Assembly (NCBI GenBank): GCA_903825315.1 | Contig: CAIKAD010000001.1 | Location: 434,001-498,000 of the forward strand | Reading direction: 5' to 3' | Length of the DNA: 64,000 nucleotides | DNA from: an uncultured Candidatus Peregrinibacteria bacterium | Lineage (GTDB): Bacteria > Patescibacteriota > Gracilibacteria > Peribacterales > Peribacteraceae | In this document: piece after piece, positions 2,513-27,921 of the stretch | Position numbering within the stretch: position 1 is the first letter of the stretch | Layout of the letters: each line of letters opens with the position of its first letter | Position numbers and translations under genes: made by a program | The notes under the pieces: model-generated | Databases searched by the model: none | Seen by the model: the letters and a program-made list of their open reading frames with translations, nothing else | Told to the model about the DNA's origin: nothing

Positions 2513-3277
2513 TTACATGCGATGGAGCATCCTCTTGCCGATGCCTGCCATCAGGAGGGCGCTCAATATTTCCACGAGCCAGAGCCCCGGACCTGTTGTT
2601 GGTTGCCACGGAGGGCGCTGAGAAGAGAGGGCCCCAGTGAGCGGAGCAGCTGCATGTGCCTGGCTGTCCGTTTGCTTTGGGCGACCATACTCGTCCAGTT
2701 GCCGTGTTGCGCCGCCGGTAACAGTGTACGGGTTGCGGGGTATGTCGGTAGTAGCTATGGATGAAGTTTCTTCTGATGCAGCTTCTACCGGCGCATCAGT
2801 TGCGCTCATGTCTTCCGTCCATACTTCCTCGTCGCTTTGTGGCAACAGTGCCTCTTCAGTCTGTGCCTGTGCCAGACGCGTCACTCCCTGTAAGCGGGAA
2901 CCGGCAATGTGCGGCTGCTCCGACAGAGACGATGCGGAATATCCCTTTTCGGTTGTGGGTGGAAGATTCCCCAAATCCGTCAACGCCGCGGCAAGGCTTG
3001 GTCGGAGAATGCTTCCTGTAGACGAAGCGATGCTGGCGGCGGGACGGGAGGAAGGCACAGCAGAGAGAACCATGTCCCATAATTCACCTGCATTCCCAAC
3101 AATAAGAATGCCGGTGACGAGCACGAGGACGATGCCGATGACGGCACCCGGGAGACGGTTGCCGGCGACCATGCCGATGCGGATATGCTTGCCGATCACT
3201 GCGCGATCATCGTTTTGCACAGGTGGGATATCCACATCGTCTTCCGTGGAATGCCAATGGGGATGCATATCCGTCAT
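2513..3277 (-). CDS. Surface protein with N-terminal helix and C-terminal sorting-like anchor
   Basis: This is the third gene of the cohesin/dockerin operon; its ATG overlaps the stop of the upstream gene (ATGA, 3274-3277), indicating translational coupling. The product (254 aa) has a polar N-terminus of about 40 residues, a strong membrane helix (about residues 43-65), a long low-complexity Ser/Ala/Glu-rich region, and a C-terminal TTGPG motif followed by a hydrophobic helix and basic residues (GKRMLHRM). That ending resembles a sortase recognition signal of the T-G-P-G type, and a sortase is encoded at 15.5-16.7 kb. No catalytic domain is visible. A wall-attached or membrane-spanning partner of the two upstream proteins is inferred from context only. 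Confidence 0.65.
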   Translation of the reverse strand: MTDMHPHWHSTEDDVDIPPVQNDDRAVIGKHIRIGMVAGNRLPGAVIGIVLVLVTGILIVGNAGELWDMVLSAVPSSRPAASIASSTGSILRPSLAAALTDLGNLPPTTEKGYSASSLSEQPHIAGSRLQGVTRLAQAQTEEALLPQSDEEVWTEDMSATDAPVEAASEETSSIATTDIPRNPYTVTGGATRQLDEYGRPKQTDSQAHAAAPLTGALSSQRPPWQPTTGPGLWLVEILSALLMAGIGKRMLHRM

Positions 3278-4701
3278 GGGCGAGAATGCGGAAGTAACGT
3301 CTGGCGACGGAAAGCAAAGAGAGTTCCCATTACCGCGGCGACAGCAACGATGAGTGCGGCTGTTTCTGCGGGACCAGATGCTCCTGGCACATTCGTATAG
3401 GAGACTCCCGTAACACTTCCCCCGAGAGGATTGCCGTTCATAAATCCGACATTCCCGAGAGGCGAGGTGGCGGAGGAGGGGTCGCCGATCTTTACCGCTA
3501 CTTCCTGGCTGAATGCCGTTTCCTCGTTGATGGCATTAAAGCCGCGTACAGCGGCGTAATACGTGGTACCGCGGACAAGAGAATATACGGCGAGTGTTGT
3601 CTGCTCCGGCCGCACTGTACGGCGCTGAATGTACTTGCCCATCTGTGTACCGTAGTAGACGTGATAGCCTTTGAGTTCGGGAGATGGCAGAGCATCCCAG
3701 CCAATGTAGAGGGATGAGTCGTCCGTTGTGACGCGCACGTTCTGCACTTGCGTAAGGACAAAACTCGTGCGCGTTGCGGCGGGATGGTCAGAACCATCTT
3801 CCTCCAGAGAAGATACAGAAGAATTGGAGGAAGCAGTTGCACTGCTGACTTGTGTCAGAGGAGCGTAGACAGAAGAGTATTGCGAAGAAGTGCTGCTGGA
3901 CACAGAGGCCTCAGAGGAAGAAACAGATGAAGCAAACGCAGAAGAGCTCTCTTCCGATGGAGGAGTCTCCTCGGGCGTGCCGGGATCCTGTGCCGTTTCC
4001 TCCACGAGGACTGCTAGCGATCCGAGTGGCTGTTCCAGAATGCTCGTTTCCGGTTCACTGGAAGAATAGATTGCGGTGTGGGGCGGTATCCCGTCTGGAT
4101 CGTAGAAGGCGAGAATGCTTCTGCCACCTCCCGGTACGGTTTTGACCTGGAACTGCACACGCGCCACCACGATGTATGTTTCTGTTGTACCGTCAATATC
4201 TTCTGATTCCGCATCCACCATGACATAGCCGTTCTCCGCATCAAAGTCTTCTTCCCCCGGTGCCGTTATAGGCAGGGCGTCACCTACAGATACCAGGGTT
4301 CCTTCGAGTACAGTCGGGTCGTACCCAAGCCACACACGGACACGCTCAATATTCAATTGATCGGCATTGTTTACTACAACGTCAAGGTCTAGGTTTTCTT
4401 CGGGATGGAGCGTTGGTGTCACGAGTGTCTGGGGGTCTTCTGCCTCAAACGATGTGCAATTGGACACATCAATTTCTTCACAGTGTGGACGCAGAAACAG
4501 CCGCACACTATTGTTAGATGTTGGTTCCGCAGGCAGCTCTCCTTCCGTGAGCACGGTGCCTGATCCGTTTTCCGGGATGATATCATCCCCTTCCACTTGT
4601 GCACGCAGTGAGAGCGTGAGACCGCTTGCAATGAGAAGTGCAGCCAACAGGCTTAAGCCAATGCCAATACTGTATCTGAGGGGGAGGGGATTGGCTGTCA
4701 T
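3274..4701 (-). CDS. Cohesin-like domain and fibronectin III surface protein
   Basis: The product (475 aa) starts at the MTANPL methionine, 5 nt after the stop of the dockerin gene. It has an N-terminal signal/anchor helix (about residues 10-32), then a roughly 150-residue domain with the cohesin hallmark VWLGYDPTVLEG, followed by FDAENGYVMVDAE and VARVQFQVK strands. A Ser-run linker and a fibronectin type III domain (LYIGWDALPSPELKGYHVYY) come next. The C-terminus is PGASGP, a hydrophobic helix and basic residues, like a degenerate sorting signal. Cohesins bind dockerins through calcium-dependent contacts, and a dockerin is encoded directly upstream, so the two products are a likely binding pair. 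Cohesin is called from motif pattern alone; a related beta-sandwich adhesion domain is the alternative. Confidence 0.7.
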   Translation of the reverse strand: MTANPLPLRYSIGIGLSLLAALLIASGLTLSLRAQVEGDDIIPENGSGTVLTEGELPAEPTSNNSVRLFLRPHCEEIDVSNCTSFEAEDPQTLVTPTLHPEENLDLDVVVNNADQLNIERVRVWLGYDPTVLEGTLVSVGDALPITAPGEEDFDAENGYVMVDAESEDIDGTTETYIVVARVQFQVKTVPGGGRSILAFYDPDGIPPHTAIYSSSEPETSILEQPLGSLAVLVEETAQDPGTPEETPPSEESSSAFASSVSSSEASVSSSTSSQYSSVYAPLTQVSSATASSNSSVSSLEEDGSDHPAATRTSFVLTQVQNVRVTTDDSSLYIGWDALPSPELKGYHVYYGTQMGKYIQRRTVRPEQTTLAVYSLVRGTTYYAAVRGFNAINEETAFSQEVAVKIGDPSSATSPLGNVGFMNGNPLGGSVTGVSYTNVPGASGPAETAALIVAVAAVMGTLFAFRRQTLLPHSRP

Positions 4702-4706
4702 GAATG

Positions 4707-5099
4707 TTAGGGTTGGAGTTGGCGGAGGATCCACAGCACGTCCGCAGTCGTCGTGTTTCCATCGCCGTCGGTATCAGCCAGGAGAGCATTTTCATCTGCC
4801 GGATGCTCCCCCCGGATGATCTTGATCGCGGTAATTGCGTCGTTCACATTAACGGTTCCATTACCGTCCATATCTCCCCTAAACGAGGAGACAATGGGGG
4901 AATTGACGATGGCAGCCACGTGATCCACTGTTGCTGTGAACACTGGTTGCTGCGCTTCACTGCGTTGGAATGTTTGTACTTCCCCAGCGGAATGGATGCC
5001 GATGAGGAAGGAGCCGAATGTGCAGGCAACACCAAATACCAGAAAGGTGATGTTGCGCTTACTCAGGAGGTTTTGGAGAGAGAGTGGGTGTGTGTGCAT
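4707..5099 (-). CDS. Dockerin type I domain protein
   Basis: This is the first gene of the operon (130 aa). An N-terminal membrane helix (ITFLVFGVACTFGSFLIG) is followed by a short spacer and a C-terminal dockerin with two calcium-binding F-hand repeats, DMDGNGTVNVND and DTDGDGNTTTAD, each followed by a helix. Dockerins dock onto cohesin modules; the next gene carries a cohesin-like domain. The start at MHTHPL is chosen because a TATACT hexamer lies 10 nt upstream; a longer frame to 5138 is possible. The protein carries only an anchor and a dockerin, so it could tether a cohesin-bearing partner to the membrane instead of delivering an enzyme. Confidence 0.8.
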   Translation of the reverse strand: MHTHPLSLQNLLSKRNITFLVFGVACTFGSFLIGIHSAGEVQTFQRSEAQQPVFTATVDHVAAIVNSPIVSSFRGDMDGNGTVNVNDAITAIKIIRGEHPADENALLADTDGDGNTTTADVLWILRQLQP

Positions 5100-5269
5100 A
5101 ATTCCTAATAGTATAGCTTGTTTTACATTTTCTCTCAATGCTCTAGAAGATTGACAGACTTATGAATGAGTATATATAACAAAGTTAAAATTTGTCGTTT
5201 GTAGGAAGCTTTACTTATGCTTTACGCCTCTGTATTCCGGAGGCCTATATCCTTTGGTAGTATTCATGC

Positions 5270-6244
5270 ATGGAGGCGCAATATTACTACTTTACCGGAG
5301 AGAATGCGTACGCGCTCCGCGAAGAATTGCGGGTGTGGAAGGAGCAATTTATTAGGAAGCACGGAGCGGAGAACTTTCTGCAAATGGATGCTTCCGATGT
5401 CACCTTGCGTACCCTGTTGGACGAAGTGGGCGTTGCGCCGTTCATCGCACAAAAGAGGCTAGTCGTCCTTCGCGGAACACCATCGTTAGACGCGGAGGAA
5501 GTGGAGAAGCTTGCGAAACTTCTCCATCCGGATTGTGTCCTTGTAATTGCAGATTCTGCGCCCGACAAGAGGACGAGTGCTTACAAAGCCCTCAAGAAGT
5601 TTGCAACCGTTAAAGAGTATGAACCACTCAAAGGTAAGCAGCTACTCCAGTGGATGACGCGCATGGCAGCCTCGTACCAATCAACATTCTCACAAGGAGC
5701 AGTAGAACATCTTGTAGAACTTGCGGGCGAGGATCAGGACGTTCTTTCGCGCGAGGTAGAAAAACTATCCCTTCATGCAGTAGGACGATCCATTAGCAAA
5801 GAAGATATTCATCTTCTCTTTCCATTTACGCGGGAACAGGAAGTGTGGCGCCTTACGCAACTTCTTGCGGAAGGGAGAGGCGACCAGGCTCTTATCTATG
5901 CAAAGACGCTCCTCCAGGGCGGGGAAGATCCGTTCTCTCTTTGGAATTTGCTTCTCTGGATGCTGCGGACGTTGGTGACGGTAACGGCAGCTGTACAGGC
6001 GGGCGTCCGCCAACCGGCGGCCATCGCATCGCAGTATAAAGTGCCGTTTCCAAGCGCGCGCAATATGCTTCCTCTTGCACAGCGCATCGATCTTTCCGCG
6101 CTTGCTTCCCTAGTGTATTGGGCTGCGGCAACGGACCGCGAACTGAAGACAGGGGGATATAAGGCGTCGAAGGAAGCACCGGAGGAACTGGTAGCTCTCA
6201 TTGATGGATTTGTTCTCAGGTGTTCACGCCTGGAGAGGAAATGA
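5270..6244 (+). CDS. holA: DNA polymerase III delta subunit
   Basis: The product (324 aa) matches HolA, the delta subunit of the clamp-loader complex that opens the sliding clamp for loading onto DNA. The N-terminal domain begins YYFTGENAYALREEL, in place of the usual nucleotide-binding loop, and is followed by the strands RLVVLRG and VLVIADSAPDKRT. The middle region contains LVELAGEDQDVLSREVEKL, a well-conserved delta segment, and the C-terminal helical domain has an LLWMLRTL segment. Length is normal for the family. A TAGTAT hexamer (5258-5263) ends 6 nt before ATG, so the mRNA is predicted to be leaderless. Confidence 0.85.
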   Translation: MEAQYYYFTGENAYALREELRVWKEQFIRKHGAENFLQMDASDVTLRTLLDEVGVAPFIAQKRLVVLRGTPSLDAEEVEKLAKLLHPDCVLVIADSAPDKRTSAYKALKKFATVKEYEPLKGKQLLQWMTRMAASYQSTFSQGAVEHLVELAGEDQDVLSREVEKLSLHAVGRSISKEDIHLLFPFTREQEVWRLTQLLAEGRGDQALIYAKTLLQGGEDPFSLWNLLLWMLRTLVTVTAAVQAGVRQPAAIASQYKVPFPSARNMLPLAQRIDLSALASLVYWAAATDRELKTGGYKASKEAPEELVALIDGFVLRCSRLERK

Positions 6245-11903: not shown

Positions 11904-12821
11904 ATGCCTTTCCTCTCCATTCTCTCTTCTGTCCTCGTTCTTTTTGCCGTACCTGCGGTGCATGCAGTCACGTCTGCATTGCAGCAGAATCTTCCTTCTG
12001 CAGGCGCTTCTTTCCAGCAGGCTTTACAGGAGGAACAGCAGCAGATACAGGAGGCAAAGGAACAGACAGGAGACGAGTTCTTTCCGCTCTCGGGGACGGG
12101 GGCGAAGGGTGATGCCTCACAGTTTGCCAACTTTGTGACTGTCCTGTGGCGGGGCGTTGCCTATGAGCTCAAGGACGTTCCGCGCCAAGCGTGGTTCGCT
12201 CCTTTTGTCCGCGATATGGTGAACCGCGGCATAGTAACTGGATACACGGAGCAGGGCGGTCGTCCTATTGGCGTATTTGGCGCTTCGGATCCTGTTACCA
12301 TTGAACAGATTGCTAAGATGATTTTGGCTGCAGCGGGGACGGACCCATCGGACTGTTCCACCACTCTCAGGAATGCGCGCGCAATAGGCCGGTGGTCACA
12401 GCAGTACATAGCCTGTGCGGAGCAGAAGAAACTTACGCTCTTTGCGGACGGAAAGGTGGATGTGACGCGGTCGGCGTATCGTGGAGAGGTTGTGCTCACT
12501 TTGCTTGAGGCATTCGGAGTCTCCAAGCCTCTGGGATCGCACAGTGGATCGTTGGTATCCCTCACGGGATCCGGTACGTCGATGACGGCGAGCGGGTCGC
12601 TCTTTACGGATGTGCCATCACTCCTGCCCGTGGCCGTTGCCATAAACCGTGCGGCAAAGGACGGTGTCATCGCGGGGTATAAGGACGCCAAGGGTAACCT
12701 GACGGGCCTTTTTGGGCCGGCGAACAAGATCAATCGCGCCGAAGTTGCCAAGATTCTCAGTATGGCTATTCAGGTGTATGCGAAGAAGGCAGCAGGCAGT
12801 AGTTCATCAAGTTCAAGGTAG
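11904..12821 (+). CDS. S-layer homology (SLH) domain protein
   Basis: The product (305 aa) has a signal peptide (FLSILSSVLVLFAVPAVHA), a Gln/Glu-rich helical stretch, and SLH-type segments: WFAPFVRDMVNRGIVTGY, a middle divergent one, and AINRAAKDGVIAGY followed by GLFGPANKINRAEVAKIL. SLH domains bind cell-wall polymers and anchor S-layer or surface proteins. A Ser-run tail (SSSSSS) ends the protein and no enzymatic domain is attached. TACGTT (11892-11897) ends 6 nt before ATG. Two more SLH proteins occur in this window, at 25-28 kb and at 51.6-52.6 kb. Confidence 0.8.
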   Translation: MPFLSILSSVLVLFAVPAVHAVTSALQQNLPSAGASFQQALQEEQQQIQEAKEQTGDEFFPLSGTGAKGDASQFANFVTVLWRGVAYELKDVPRQAWFAPFVRDMVNRGIVTGYTEQGGRPIGVFGASDPVTIEQIAKMILAAAGTDPSDCSTTLRNARAIGRWSQQYIACAEQKKLTLFADGKVDVTRSAYRGEVVLTLLEAFGVSKPLGSHSGSLVSLTGSGTSMTASGSLFTDVPSLLPVAVAINRAAKDGVIAGYKDAKGNLTGLFGPANKINRAEVAKILSMAIQVYAKKAAGSSSSSSR

Positions 12822-15522: not shown

Positions 15523-16737
15523 TCACATCGGTAGCGACTCGATGCTGATTTTTGGCTTTGGTTGTGTTGCGATTTCTCCGATTTGCAGTGGAAGGCCGGT
15601 CTCGGGATCTACTTCGTTTGAGACGATAATGAGGCGGCGGAGGCTGGTGCCTACCGGTGTGCAGGTCATGAGTGTCGCTAACCGCTTGTCCGTCGGTTGG
15701 TCGAGGACTGTGATGTCCGATGGACTCACCTCCTTTTTTGACCGCACGACGTACCGGTGCTTGTCCCCGCCGAAGTAAACCCAGTACTCGTCGCCTGGCG
15801 AAAGTTCGTGGAGGCGAGCGAACACCGTTTTAAAGTTGCCTGGTGCCCACGGGTAGTAGGAGCTGTGGCCGGTGACGAAAAAATTACCGGCTTGGCCCGG
15901 ATTCGCGGTTCCAGGATAGTGGACGACGCCGTCGGTGAGAGCTGACTGGATGTCTTTTTCAACCTGTGGCCAGTTGCCTGCGAGCAGCGATTCGAATGGG
16001 GGCGTGACCAAGGGGACATTAAGGTCAAGCTTGGGGATGATGACGCGGTTGTCGGGCGGTCCCACAAGGGGCAGTACACTGAGGATGTTTCCTTCTTCCA
16101 CGGATCCCGCCTGCGCCAAGCCCGGTACAAGCTTGAGCTTGTCCTGTAATGCTGTTGCGAGAGCTGTATCGGACTCGTCGAAGGTTGCTGAAGTGATGAA
16201 CGGGCGAACGTGCGCCGAAGCAATTTGCCAGAAGCTTTGGTAATTGAGTGCTACGAACAGCACGACAAAGATCAATGCAAACGTTCCTCCGAAGCGGACG
16301 GTGTCCGTGAGAAACAATCTGCCACGTCCCATTTCCTTGGTGCCGCGGCGCGTGGGAACCCAGACAGGCTGCGTGAGAAAACTGAATGTTTTCCCCAGTA
16401 TCGATCTCGTCTCCCGACCCACACTGCTGATGAGCGACGGTGTTTCCTGAATACTTGCGAGGTACTGGCGCATGCCTTCCTCAAGTACGTCTTCCGTGAT
16501 GTGGCGTCGTACGGTCGCAAGCCGGTCACGGATAGGACGGTGTGTTGCGTCGCCGGAAAGATGCGGAAGGTCCTGGTTGAATGCCAGAATCTGCTCCGGT
16601 GTCGGTGGCGCTTCGGTAATGTTCCATGTATTGCTGACCTCTTCCGTGTCCTGAAAGGGCATGCCGTCCGGTTCCAGGACAATATTCCCGCTTACGTCGT
16701 AATGTGCGCTGTGGCGACGGAAGAGCTCAGAAATCAT
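15523..16737 (-). CDS. Sortase family protein with long cytoplasmic N-terminus
   Basis: Sortases are membrane transpeptidases that cut surface proteins at a C-terminal sorting motif and link them to the wall or to other proteins. The product (404 aa) has about 165 cytoplasmic residues, one membrane helix (GGTFALIFVVLFVALNY), then the sortase barrel with catalytic His in FFVTGHSSYYPW, catalytic Cys in TLMTCTPVGT and the Arg in SLRRLIIV. The barrel is normal; the long N-terminal extension is not, since most sortases have only a short tail before the helix. Two proteins at 2.5-4.7 kb end in sorting-like signals and are plausible substrates. A TATACT lies only 3 nt before ATG. Confidence 0.9.
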   Translation of the reverse strand: MISELFRRHSAHYDVSGNIVLEPDGMPFQDTEEVSNTWNITEAPPTPEQILAFNQDLPHLSGDATHRPIRDRLATVRRHITEDVLEEGMRQYLASIQETPSLISSVGRETRSILGKTFSFLTQPVWVPTRRGTKEMGRGRLFLTDTVRFGGTFALIFVVLFVALNYQSFWQIASAHVRPFITSATFDESDTALATALQDKLKLVPGLAQAGSVEEGNILSVLPLVGPPDNRVIIPKLDLNVPLVTPPFESLLAGNWPQVEKDIQSALTDGVVHYPGTANPGQAGNFFVTGHSSYYPWAPGNFKTVFARLHELSPGDEYWVYFGGDKHRYVVRSKKEVSPSDITVLDQPTDKRLATLMTCTPVGTSLRRLIIVSNEVDPETGLPLQIGEIATQPKPKISIESLPM

Positions 16738-25146: not shown

Positions 25147-27747
25147 CTATTCCGTTCTCAGTGGTGCCGCACATGGTGCAAAATCACCACAAGGTTGAGG
25201 AGTCGTGGAAATGTCTGAGAATTCCACAGAGCCTTCCTTCTGAAGCGTACCGAGTGATGTGCTCCTTACCTCGCCGTTGCTTACCGTGAGCAGAGATTGC
25301 GCAATGCGAAGGATACGCTGGACGTCCTTGCCATAGTCGTACCACCAGTTGCCAGCCTTCGTATACGCATCTTCACTGTAATGGGAAATCTTTCCTTTGA
25401 GCTGGAAGCCAGAATCGAGAGAAAGTTTGTACACATATGCGCCTTGGAAAGTGGGTAATCCCTCTGCGCTAGCCGAAGAGTTGGGCGGACGTGTGTACAC
25501 GGTGATGGGGAACGCGAGGAGGCCTGTTTCTTTCTCAAATAGCAGCGCTTTGTGGTTACTGAGTAGGGGGCTGTCCGTTCCGCGGTCACCAATCACTTCT
25601 TTGTACATTTCCTTGGGATTATTCACATCCGAGACGTCGAAGAGTGCCATCTTCATTCCCTGAACAGCAGTGTAGTAGACAGCATCGTTGCTATGTACCT
25701 TGTCCTTGTCGATGGACTCATCCACGTCCTTCCCGAATCCGATAATGTGCGTTTCATCGAAAGGATGGAGATAGTTGCTATAACCGGGGATCTTGAGCTT
25801 ACCGAGAATCACGGGATTGCGCGGGTTGGTGGTGTCGATGACGAAGAGGGGATCGACGGTCTTAAAGGTGACCATGTACGCCCGGTTGCCCATGAAACGT
25901 ATAGAGTAGATTTGCTCACCGAGTGCAATGTCTTCAATCTTCCCTACGGTTTCCAGGTCCTGATTGAGGACGTAGAGATTGTTGGAGGATTGTTTGCTGC
26001 TGTCCCATGCCTGATTGACAGTGGTTGCCACGCGGAATGTGGTGCCGTTCTCATCCATGGAGAATTGATTCAGGAGGTGGCCGGGTACGCTGCCCTGTGC
26101 CTTGAGCGCGATGCCGTCATCGGTAAAGGCGAAGCGGTACACGTTGGTGCGTTCCGTATTCTCATCTGGAGCGCGGATTCCCGATTCATTCTTTATGGGT
26201 CCCCAGTAGTAGATTTGTTGGAATGTGCTGACGTACAGATTGGTAAGTGATGCGTAAACGTTCTGTGCGTTCCCGAGTACTGTCTCCCGCATTACATCAC
26301 TCGTAGCGTTTGCGGTATTAATGACGGCGACTGTCAGGTATTGCGGCGACGGGACGTGCGGGAGGATGGAGACATCGGCGCACTTGGCAACGGGAATGCT
26401 GTCCGTTCCCCTGGCGGAGTCTTCGAAGAGAGGAAGAATGTCAGCTGCGTCTGGGTTGGGAACGGGGCGTTCCATCCAACGCATCGGCTGGTTAACGATG
26501 AAGTACAGCTTGTTTCCGATGAGACGCGTGGAGACACTGGAACCTTCGAAGGATACTTTCCGTTCGAGAGTCGGCTTGGTCTTGTCCGTTACGTCGAAGA
26601 TGCGTACCTGCGCCAAGCCGGGATTCCAGTACGGTGGCATTATCATGGGAGATGCTCTGCCCATGATGTGGATAGGACCGTCACCCTTCCTCCACGCGTT
26701 GCCAATAATGATCAGCTTGTTGCCGTTGATGTAGAGTTCCTGCGGTGAGAAAGTGGAATCCGAGTCCAGTACCGTGCTCACCTCCTTCATATCGCTCGCA
26801 GGACGTGCTTTGACGATGCGAACCATGCCGTTGGATACGATGTAGAGATACGTCCCGTCCGTCTTTACGACGTCGGCCTCATCCACTCCTTCCACTTGGA
26901 CGTTCGTGTGAGAATACTCAAGGTTTGCAGCTCCTCCAGACGTGGGTGCTGCCTCAGGTGCTGCTTCATTCCGCATCATTCCCTGGGGCATCATCACTTT
27001 GTCTTCCATCATGATGCCACCGCCGTACCCCCTGCCGCCCGAGCGCGCTTCCACGGCGAAAGCCTGCAGATCTGCACAGGACTTGGCAGACTGAACGGTA
27101 TCCGAAGAGAGGTTCACTGTTACATCGGGATACTTCACGTTGAGGTATCCTTTGGACGGTTGATCTGTGATGCCTTTGGTGAGGCGCCACATCATCTCAG
27201 CCATCTCGCCGCGCGAAAGATCCTTCGTGAGTCCGTTGATGGACGTGGGGATGGCTTTGGAGGTGTCGAGCGCTTCGACGTAGGGAACGTACCAGTCTCC
27301 ACCCTGGTTCTGGATTGGCTGTTTGAATGTAAGGGAAAATATTTTACTGGCTTCCGTAAAGTTTACCGGCTTGTCGGGTCGGAAGAGGCCGTCGTCGTAG
27401 CCGGAAACTATGCCTTCCATTTTTGCCGTGCACACATACCGGGAAAACCACTGGTTCTGTACATCGGGGAAACAACGTGAACCGCTGATCGCTGCGTTGT
27501 TACCGCGCGCTTCCAGTATGATCTTGAGAAGTTCCGCGCGATTGATCGTCGCATCGGGTTTGAATGTGCCGTCCGCGTATCCCTGGAGGATGTTGTCGCT
27601 CTTGAGCGCGCCGATAGCTTTCGCATAGGTAGCATTGGGTTCGACATCACTGAAGGGGCCGTTTGCTGCGGAGGCGGGGACGAGTCCTGCCGTAAGGCTT
27701 ACTATCAGGGACAGAAGGACAAGTGTGGCCATGATGTTGCGGCGCAT
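25147..27747 (-). CDS. SLH-anchored secreted beta-propeller protein
   Basis: The product (866 aa) has a signal peptide (ATLVLLSLIVSLTAGLVPASA), then three S-layer homology segments (AIGALKSDNILQGYADG, AKMEGIVSGYDDGLFRP, and one near residue 190), a Gly/Met-rich linker, and a C-terminal propeller of about 560 residues. The propeller starts with QVEGVDEADVVKTDGTYLYI, the signature of the 'beta propeller domain, secreted' family (PF09826). The SLH part should attach it to the wall; the function of the propeller family is unknown. The start at 27747 follows a C/T-rich leader; a longer frame begins at 27807. It is one of the largest surface proteins in the window. Confidence 0.82.
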   Translation of the reverse strand: MRRNIMATLVLLSLIVSLTAGLVPASAANGPFSDVEPNATYAKAIGALKSDNILQGYADGTFKPDATINRAELLKIILEARGNNAAISGSRCFPDVQNQWFSRYVCTAKMEGIVSGYDDGLFRPDKPVNFTEASKIFSLTFKQPIQNQGGDWYVPYVEALDTSKAIPTSINGLTKDLSRGEMAEMMWRLTKGITDQPSKGYLNVKYPDVTVNLSSDTVQSAKSCADLQAFAVEARSGGRGYGGGIMMEDKVMMPQGMMRNEAAPEAAPTSGGAANLEYSHTNVQVEGVDEADVVKTDGTYLYIVSNGMVRIVKARPASDMKEVSTVLDSDSTFSPQELYINGNKLIIIGNAWRKGDGPIHIMGRASPMIMPPYWNPGLAQVRIFDVTDKTKPTLERKVSFEGSSVSTRLIGNKLYFIVNQPMRWMERPVPNPDAADILPLFEDSARGTDSIPVAKCADVSILPHVPSPQYLTVAVINTANATSDVMRETVLGNAQNVYASLTNLYVSTFQQIYYWGPIKNESGIRAPDENTERTNVYRFAFTDDGIALKAQGSVPGHLLNQFSMDENGTTFRVATTVNQAWDSSKQSSNNLYVLNQDLETVGKIEDIALGEQIYSIRFMGNRAYMVTFKTVDPLFVIDTTNPRNPVILGKLKIPGYSNYLHPFDETHIIGFGKDVDESIDKDKVHSNDAVYYTAVQGMKMALFDVSDVNNPKEMYKEVIGDRGTDSPLLSNHKALLFEKETGLLAFPITVYTRPPNSSASAEGLPTFQGAYVYKLSLDSGFQLKGKISHYSEDAYTKAGNWWYDYGKDVQRILRIAQSLLTVSNGEVRSTSLGTLQKEGSVEFSDISTTPQPCGDFAPCAAPLRTE

Positions 27748-27921
27748 ACGGATAGGGGGAATGGGTACGAAGATCGTTACACTCAATACTACGGCAATCG
27801 TACGCATTTGTTACAGTGATGAGGTTGACGGGATTCTTCCTCGATCCGCCAATTCCCCAAACACAACGAGACACTGGTCATAGTGACCCAAGTGTGTCTC
27901 TCATATACCGGAATGGCTGGC

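Follow-up and report, generated by a model that had tools for sequence, protein, structure and literature searches.

Why would an uncultured Candidatus Peregrinibacteria bacterium keep a dockerin and a cohesin in an operon that carries no hydrolase domain? We analyzed a 64,000-nucleotide (nt) stretch (the window; positions 434001 to 498000 of contig 1, CAIKAD010000001.1) of its 1.29-Mb genome. On the minus strand, three tightly packed genes encode, in order, a membrane-anchored dockerin (gene 1), a cohesin-plus-FN3 protein (gene 2), and a third protein (gene 3). The coordinates of the open reading frames (ORFs) agree with an earlier note, made from the sequence alone, that had described a three-gene operon: genes 1 and 2 are separated by 5 nt (4702 to 4706), and genes 2 and 3 share an ATGA overlap (3274 to 3277). 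With moderate confidence, we propose that the operon encodes a minimal, nonenzymatic cohesin-dockerin surface complex that works in cis and ties the membrane to the wall (or surface layer). The features are compiled in Table 1.

Gene 1 is composed of an N-terminal helix and a dockerin, as had been noticed from the letters. The dockerin matched the Pfam family Dockerin_1 (PF00404; E value, 7e-8; 33 bits) above the curated cut-off (22.9), and a search of PDB sequences with the dockerin profile matched several dockerins as well as EF-hand proteins. Both 12-residue calcium loops of the window dockerin carry ligands at positions 1, 3, 5, and 12, which agrees with the calcium dependence that the earlier note had proposed. 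Among 70 dockerins of the GTDB family, 66 retain both loops intact (one loop fails in 1 protein, and 3 proteins were not matched by the pattern), with a nearly constant spacing of 33 residues. We aligned 68 of these proteins, i.e., all except those of loci L046 and L062. Phe31 and Gly34 of the helix are identical in all 68. The most conserved zone of gene 1 is the juxtamembrane segment that follows the helix (mean column entropy, 1.50 bits; dockerin, 1.71; helix, 1.93; linker, 2.97), which may serve as a contact or processing site. A total of 67 of the 68 proteins share Ala49, located 14 residues beyond the helix. Signal peptidase I cleavage after this near-invariant alanine was considered and is doubted because of that distance and because, in several dockerin proteins of the sister family, where the helix is likewise followed by such a motif, the corresponding residues read LFKA or LFQA and put an aromatic residue at -3. 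At the level of the class, an anchor-plus-dockerin profile matched 77 of 288 genomes (56 in the family and 21 outside it). None of the listed matches in the 21 outside genomes covers profile positions 1 to 27 (the anchor), and thus the anchor as such was seen in the family only.

The cohesin of gene 2 was recognized by its fold. The window protein matched the Pfam family Cohesin (PF00963) with an E value of 0.0011 and 19.6 bits, which falls below the 24.1-bit cut-off. At an E value of ≤0.01, PF00963 was detected in 56 of 72 gene 2 orthologues. An AlphaFold2 model of gene 2, based on a 28-row alignment, contains confident domains at approximately residues 63 to 236 and 311 to 407. Comparison of the first domain with 4uyq_A by VIA-align resulted in a Z score of 14.2 (root mean square deviation, 2.5 Å; 137 residues aligned), while the cohesin model of an orthologue reached 14.9, with cohesins filling the best-ranked rows. 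Therefore, despite the Pfam score below the cut-off, the first domain of gene 2 is, as modeled, a cohesin, and what had been called cohesin-like can be named as such. The second domain matched FN3 (5e53_D; Z score, 14.1), and PF00041 (FN3) was found in 66 of 72 orthologues. The top Foldseek match of gene 2 was 2w1n, a Clostridium perfringens cohesin-FN3 construct (E value, 4e-12). When PDB sequences were searched, a cohesin-only profile reached two cohesins (E values, 0.06 to 0.09), and the longer profile, A1, reached four (E values, 0.0005 to 0.003) plus FN3 chains. Cys74 and Cys82, which lie ahead of the cohesin, are invariant among the orthologues, and Arg122 and Trp124 are conserved. An AxA-like site is present within residues 16 to 75 in 60 of 72 orthologues. 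The linker between the cohesin and FN3 is variable; in some orthologues (alignments A1 and A6) it is Cys rich and matches DUF4215 or EB-like families, in accord with the high cysteine content that passages of PMC4736985 report for Peribacteria. The genome contains a second cohesin-like match (127164 to 127475; L002, 772 to 1995), which lies in a 407-amino-acid (aa) protein with a Ser-rich stretch and a tail composed of MPQTGAS, a helix, and a basic end.

Cohesin and dockerin domains belong to cellulosomal families, and a reduced cellulosome or another enzyme-carrying complex therefore had to be weighed. We found neither a scaffoldin with several cohesins nor dockerin-bearing hydrolases. Gene 2 has a single cohesin, the operon lacks a hydrolase or binding module, and the only other cohesin match of the genome lies in a separate protein. 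A survey of the genome detected no dockerin besides the bare one of gene 1, and the four dockerin-matching proteins scanned from the sister family (see below) had EGF- or Ig-like matches and no hydrolases. An enzyme complex is thus highly improbable, as the earlier note had argued. A scan of the operon proteins against NCBIfam gave nothing above the cut-offs.

The operon belongs to the core of its GTDB family. By tblastn, gene 2 was matched in 73 of 74 family genomes, including all 57 genomes with a completeness of ≥90% and a contamination of ≤5%. One of the 73 matches (G044) was weak and limited to the FN3 part (residues 318 to 414), and one genome (G030) had no match; the loci of the other 72 genomes were examined. 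A dockerin with its anchor was found in 70 of the 72 loci and, by a hidden Markov model (HMM), relatives of the third gene in all 72 (in one case no more than a fragment where the contig stops). The arrangement is beyond chance because it is conserved across the family. Record titles of 43 family loci mostly read Candidatus Peribacteria, Peribacteraceae, or Peregrinibacteria. Within a sample of 379 genomes from the phylum, full-length gene 2 was found in the family only (16 of 16 family genomes), with partial matches elsewhere.

Genes 2 and 3 both have sorting-like ends, as had been noted before: a helix and a basic end are present in each, preceded by PGASG in gene 2 and by QPTTG in gene 3, whose tail the earlier note had given as TTGPG, helix, and Arg/Lys. 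Among gene 2 orthologues, 69 of 72 tails contain GxTG, GxSG, or GxAG, and the helix is followed by an RRQ-like end in 67. Tails of gene 3 relatives were counted in 67 proteins, i.e., all but five that were cut off or had no end: PxTG occurs in 45 and PxSG in 4 (49 together), and the basic end occurs in all 67. A Pfam scan of the window copy of gene 3 matched no family. A 42-aa N terminus with a conserved HPHWxxT motif (family consensus, HPHWxxTDD) precedes its helix. When 30 relatives of gene 3 were scanned, 17 (for example, that of L037 at 4699 to 5550, minus strand) matched Cupredoxin_1 (PF13473), and the window copy did not; the usual copper-ligand pattern was not obvious by eye in this cupredoxin-like domain. 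A candidate processing enzyme, the sortase that the earlier note had placed about 10 kb away, was identified there by PF04203. Sortases were found in 73 of 74 family genomes, with two matches in the source genome. A listed sortase lay on the same contig as the operon in 41 genomes, within 20 kb of it in 40 and on the same strand in 39 (median distance, 10.9 kb). The source genome also has three matches to peptidoglycan transpeptidase domains. According to passages of PMC4736985, Peribacteria encode peptidoglycan synthesis, S-layer proteins, and sortase A.

From these parts, the proposed complex would be built as follows. The helix of gene 1 would hold the dockerin near the outer face of the cytoplasmic membrane. 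Gene 2 would be secreted with its N-terminal cohesin free, and the dockerin would grip this cohesin with calcium. The C terminus of gene 2 (FN3, then PGxTG-helix-RRQ) would stay in the membrane or go to the wall via sortase, and with the dockerin near the membrane and a sorting-like end on gene 2, the dockerin-cohesin bond would tie the membrane to the wall. Gene 3, with a helix at its N terminus and a PxTG-type tail, could span from membrane to wall as a second bridge. The genes, the folds, the intact calcium loops, the family-wide conservation, and the sister-family version are observed; we infer the binding of cohesin to dockerin and the sortase processing and tether role of the operon proteins.

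Several observations weigh against this proposal. Besides the Pfam score of the window cohesin, the PGASG tail of gene 2 is not a canonical LPxTG signal, and 18 of 67 gene 3 tails contain neither PxTG nor PxSG. A mirror-tree analysis of the 61 genomes with all parts yielded a partial correlation (r) of 0.09 between the dockerin and the cohesin domain (bootstrap 95% interval, -0.09 to 0.28), compared with 0.37 for dockerin and FN3, 0.14 for dockerin and the third protein, and -0.16 for dockerin and holA; the cohesin exceeded FN3 in 5% of bootstraps. This result does not support specific coevolution of the dockerin with the cohesin domain and, if anything, speaks against it. Residues 122 and 124 of the cohesin presumably lie on the dockerin-facing strand, judging from an alignment to 1g1k and known contact positions. 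Residue 122 is Arg in 62 and Lys in 4 of 72 orthologues, and position 11 of dockerin loop 2 is Asp or Glu in 55 of 68. Charge complementarity between the two was rejected as a sign of pairing, as the exceptions pair inconsistently and the window dockerin has Ala. Trp124 is lost in L036 and L037, both with Ser at position 11 of loop 2 and both of one genus. AlphaFold2 produced a confident dockerin and a confident cohesin in a joined chain of an orthologue; we weighed the predicted template modeling score of this chain (0.58) as possible evidence of an interface and drew nothing from it, given that a two-domain window model (0.47) had a similar excess over a rough expectation. Finally, the loci of genus g20 (L070 and L071) lack the dockerin and retain gene 3 together with a gene 2 in which Arg122 and Trp124 are preserved. 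There, gene 2 must therefore act without this dockerin. Taken as a whole, the interpretation of the earlier note is partly supported.

The retention of gene 2 in g20, the mirror-tree outcome (0.09 versus 0.37 for FN3), and the second cohesin-like match, in an MPQTG-tailed protein, would fit an alternative in which the cohesin has one ligand (protein or glycan) and the dockerin another, the operon being shared merely as a set of surface proteins. We regard this as unlikely. The sole dockerin found in the genome adjoins a cohesin, and the two domains are strongly associated in unrelated Patescibacteria. Outside the family, 32 genomes of the phylum sample had both domains among the matches listed. 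The nearest pair was within 3 kb in 20 of these, always on the same strand, compared with about 1 genome expected by chance. As read from the coordinates, the dockerin comes first in 15 of the 20, both domains share one ORF in 4, and the cohesin comes first in 1. For genomes G248 and G422, neither of which has a listed cohesin, one dockerin row each was included in this count.

The same pairing occurs in a sister family (f10). In 10 of the 13 f10 loci examined, the order is a dockerin-ended protein, a large protein (read from the ORF lists of four loci), a cohesin lipoprotein, and a cohesin/FN3 protein; in the other three, the contig ends before the cohesins. A lipobox is present in all 10 cohesin lipoproteins, and the cohesin/FN3 protein ends in QPQNGP, a helix, and a basic end. 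Where the HMM or ORF list showed one, the next protein resembles gene 3 and has a tail of the TGP or SGP type. The dockerin proteins of f10 are 559 to >1,300 residues long where complete, most with an N-terminal helix as judged by eye. Loci L218, L220, L223 to L227, and L230 to L232 have two cohesins per operon, one on the predicted lipoprotein and one on the sorting-tailed protein, which would allow dockerin-tailed proteins to be retained at either the membrane or the wall. Given these large dockerin-tailed proteins, the Peribacteraceae operon looks like a version that lost its cargo, i.e., it appears to be a stripped-down form of a sister-family operon that would dock large Ig-like proteins. 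Within the family, in L062 (G028), several hundred residues of cargo separate the same anchor from the terminal dockerin, and this cargo-bearing protein is followed by an additional Ig-like protein of 1,320 aa. A bolder version of the proposed complex, which we offer as doubtful, would make it a calcium-operated membrane-to-wall staple with gene 3 as a second, covalent bridge: a core, perhaps essential part of the Peribacteria envelope, with its origin in a patescibacterial module whose neighboring dockerin and cohesin genes serve to dock large surface proteins.

The large Ig-like cargo of the sister family also suits a role in attachment, in which cohesin and dockerin would meet in trans between like neighbor cells or an FN3/cohesin arm would reach a host. 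All three proteins look exported and anchored, FN3 and cohesin domains are at hand, and Patescibacteria are often epibionts. Moreover, passages of PMC10633639 list the saccharibacterial dockerin protein SEML1_0315 as essential, and its authors speculate about host-glycan targeting by such proteins. Such an adhesin is improbable in our assessment, as the dockerin sits only about 15 to 40 residues from its helix, which favors a partner on the same cell, and a Pfam scan of the three proteins revealed neither a carbohydrate-binding domain nor a known adhesin domain.

A promoter-like site lies just before gene 1; the consensus scan found 3 sigma-70-like sites in the region versus 1.8 expected. On the plus strand, two genes (1237 to 1932 and 2031 to 2495) encode prepilin-like proteins that carry N-terminal methylation motifs (PF07963), and the second gene heads towards gene 3 with a gap of 17 nt. 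The window further encodes two SLH proteins. One, at 25147 to 27807 (minus strand), combines two SLH stretches with a beta propeller of 500 residues (PF09826; E value, 1.7e-159), and the other lies at 11904 to 12821.

Table 1. Features of the operon and associated elements (window positions unless stated otherwise)
Feature	Position	Strand	Basis
Gene 1, membrane-anchored dockerin, 130 aa	4707-5099	-	ORF; PF00404, 33 bits; orthologue in 70/72 family loci
Gene 1 transmembrane helix, residues 17-35	4995-5051	-	Alignment of 68 dockerin proteins
Gene 1 juxtamembrane segment, residues 36-49, consensus xTAGxVxPVxLIEA	4953-4994	-	Column entropy, 68-protein alignment
Gene 1 type I dockerin, two calcium loops, DMDGNGTVNVND and DTDGDGNTTTAD	4716-4877 (genome 438716-438877)	-	Profile match; loop pattern
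Gene 2, cohesin, Ser-rich linker, FN3, and sorting-like tail, 475 aa	3274-4701	-	ORF; 73/74 family genomes
Gene 2 signal-peptide-like N terminus, residues 1-35	4597-4701	-	Model helix 11-32; AxA-like site in orthologues
Gene 2 cohesin domain, residues 63-236	3994-4515	-	AlphaFold2 model; VIA-align; Foldseek; alignment
Gene 2 Ser-rich linker	3772-3984	-	Low predicted local distance difference test score; sequence
Gene 2 FN3 domain, residues 311-407	3481-3771	-	Model fold match; PF00041 in orthologues
Gene 2 C-terminal PGASG motif, helix, and FRRQ, residues 439-468	3298-3387	-	Sequence; orthologue tails
Gene 3, N-terminal helix, disordered-looking middle, and sorting-like tail, 254 aa	2513-3277	-	ORF; HMM relatives in 72/72 loci
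Gene 3 N-terminal transmembrane helix, residues 43-61	3095-3151	-	Helix-like segment in 63/67 relatives
Gene 3 C-terminal QPTTG motif, helix, and basic end, residues 225-254	2516-2605	-	Tails of relatives
Sortase, 404 aa, candidate processing enzyme	15523-16737	-	PF04203, E value 2.2e-22, 79.6 bits; ~10 kb from operon
Promoter-like site TTGAGA-17-TATACT, just before gene 1	5110-5138	-	Consensus scan, 10/12 matches; weak evidence

Few calcium-dependent protein clasps have been studied as well as cohesin-dockerin pairs, and the use of these pairs outside enzyme complexes is poorly understood. Here, an uncultivated family with genomes of approximately 1.2 Mb retains the bare clasp as a core operon, and its relatives show how a system for docking large surface proteins may have shrunk to this clasp. 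The operon is a specific candidate for how patescibacterial envelopes hold together or display surface proteins. Noncellulosomal cohesin and dockerin modules were reportedly treated by Peer et al. in 2009. Passages of a further report (PMC10066038) state that cohesins and dockerins are known in organisms without cellulosomes and suggest a role in adhesion. Our literature search of open-licence papers found no description of the operon, and the main text of PMC4736985 does not contain the words dockerin and cohesin.

Compared with the noncellulosomal modules, the dockerin described here is attached to a membrane anchor alone and belongs to a dedicated operon of three genes that is family-wide. 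Gene 2 resembles the C. perfringens GH84C module (2w1n) in having a cohesin followed by FN3; in C. perfringens, however, the modules are on secreted hydrolases, whereas here there is no enzyme and both ends look anchored. In anchoring scaffoldins of cellulosomes (OlpA, SdbA, and ScaE type), a surface-attached cohesin catches a dockerin. Fold matches to 3ul4, 2bm3, and 2zf9 were obtained; the operon proteins have no SLH or scaffoldin repeat according to Pfam, and the dockerin is itself membrane anchored and carries neither a scaffoldin nor an enzyme. The ends of genes 2 and 3 resemble those of sortase-anchored proteins in their helix and basic residues, with QPTTG and PGASG in the place of LPxTG. 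Lastly, SEML1_0315 of the saccharibacterium Southlakia epibionticum is likewise an envelope dockerin protein in a patescibacterium and, in passages of PMC10633639, is reported to be essential. The likeness is one of description, and the operon may offer a frame for this dockerin protein of a cultivated saccharibacterium.

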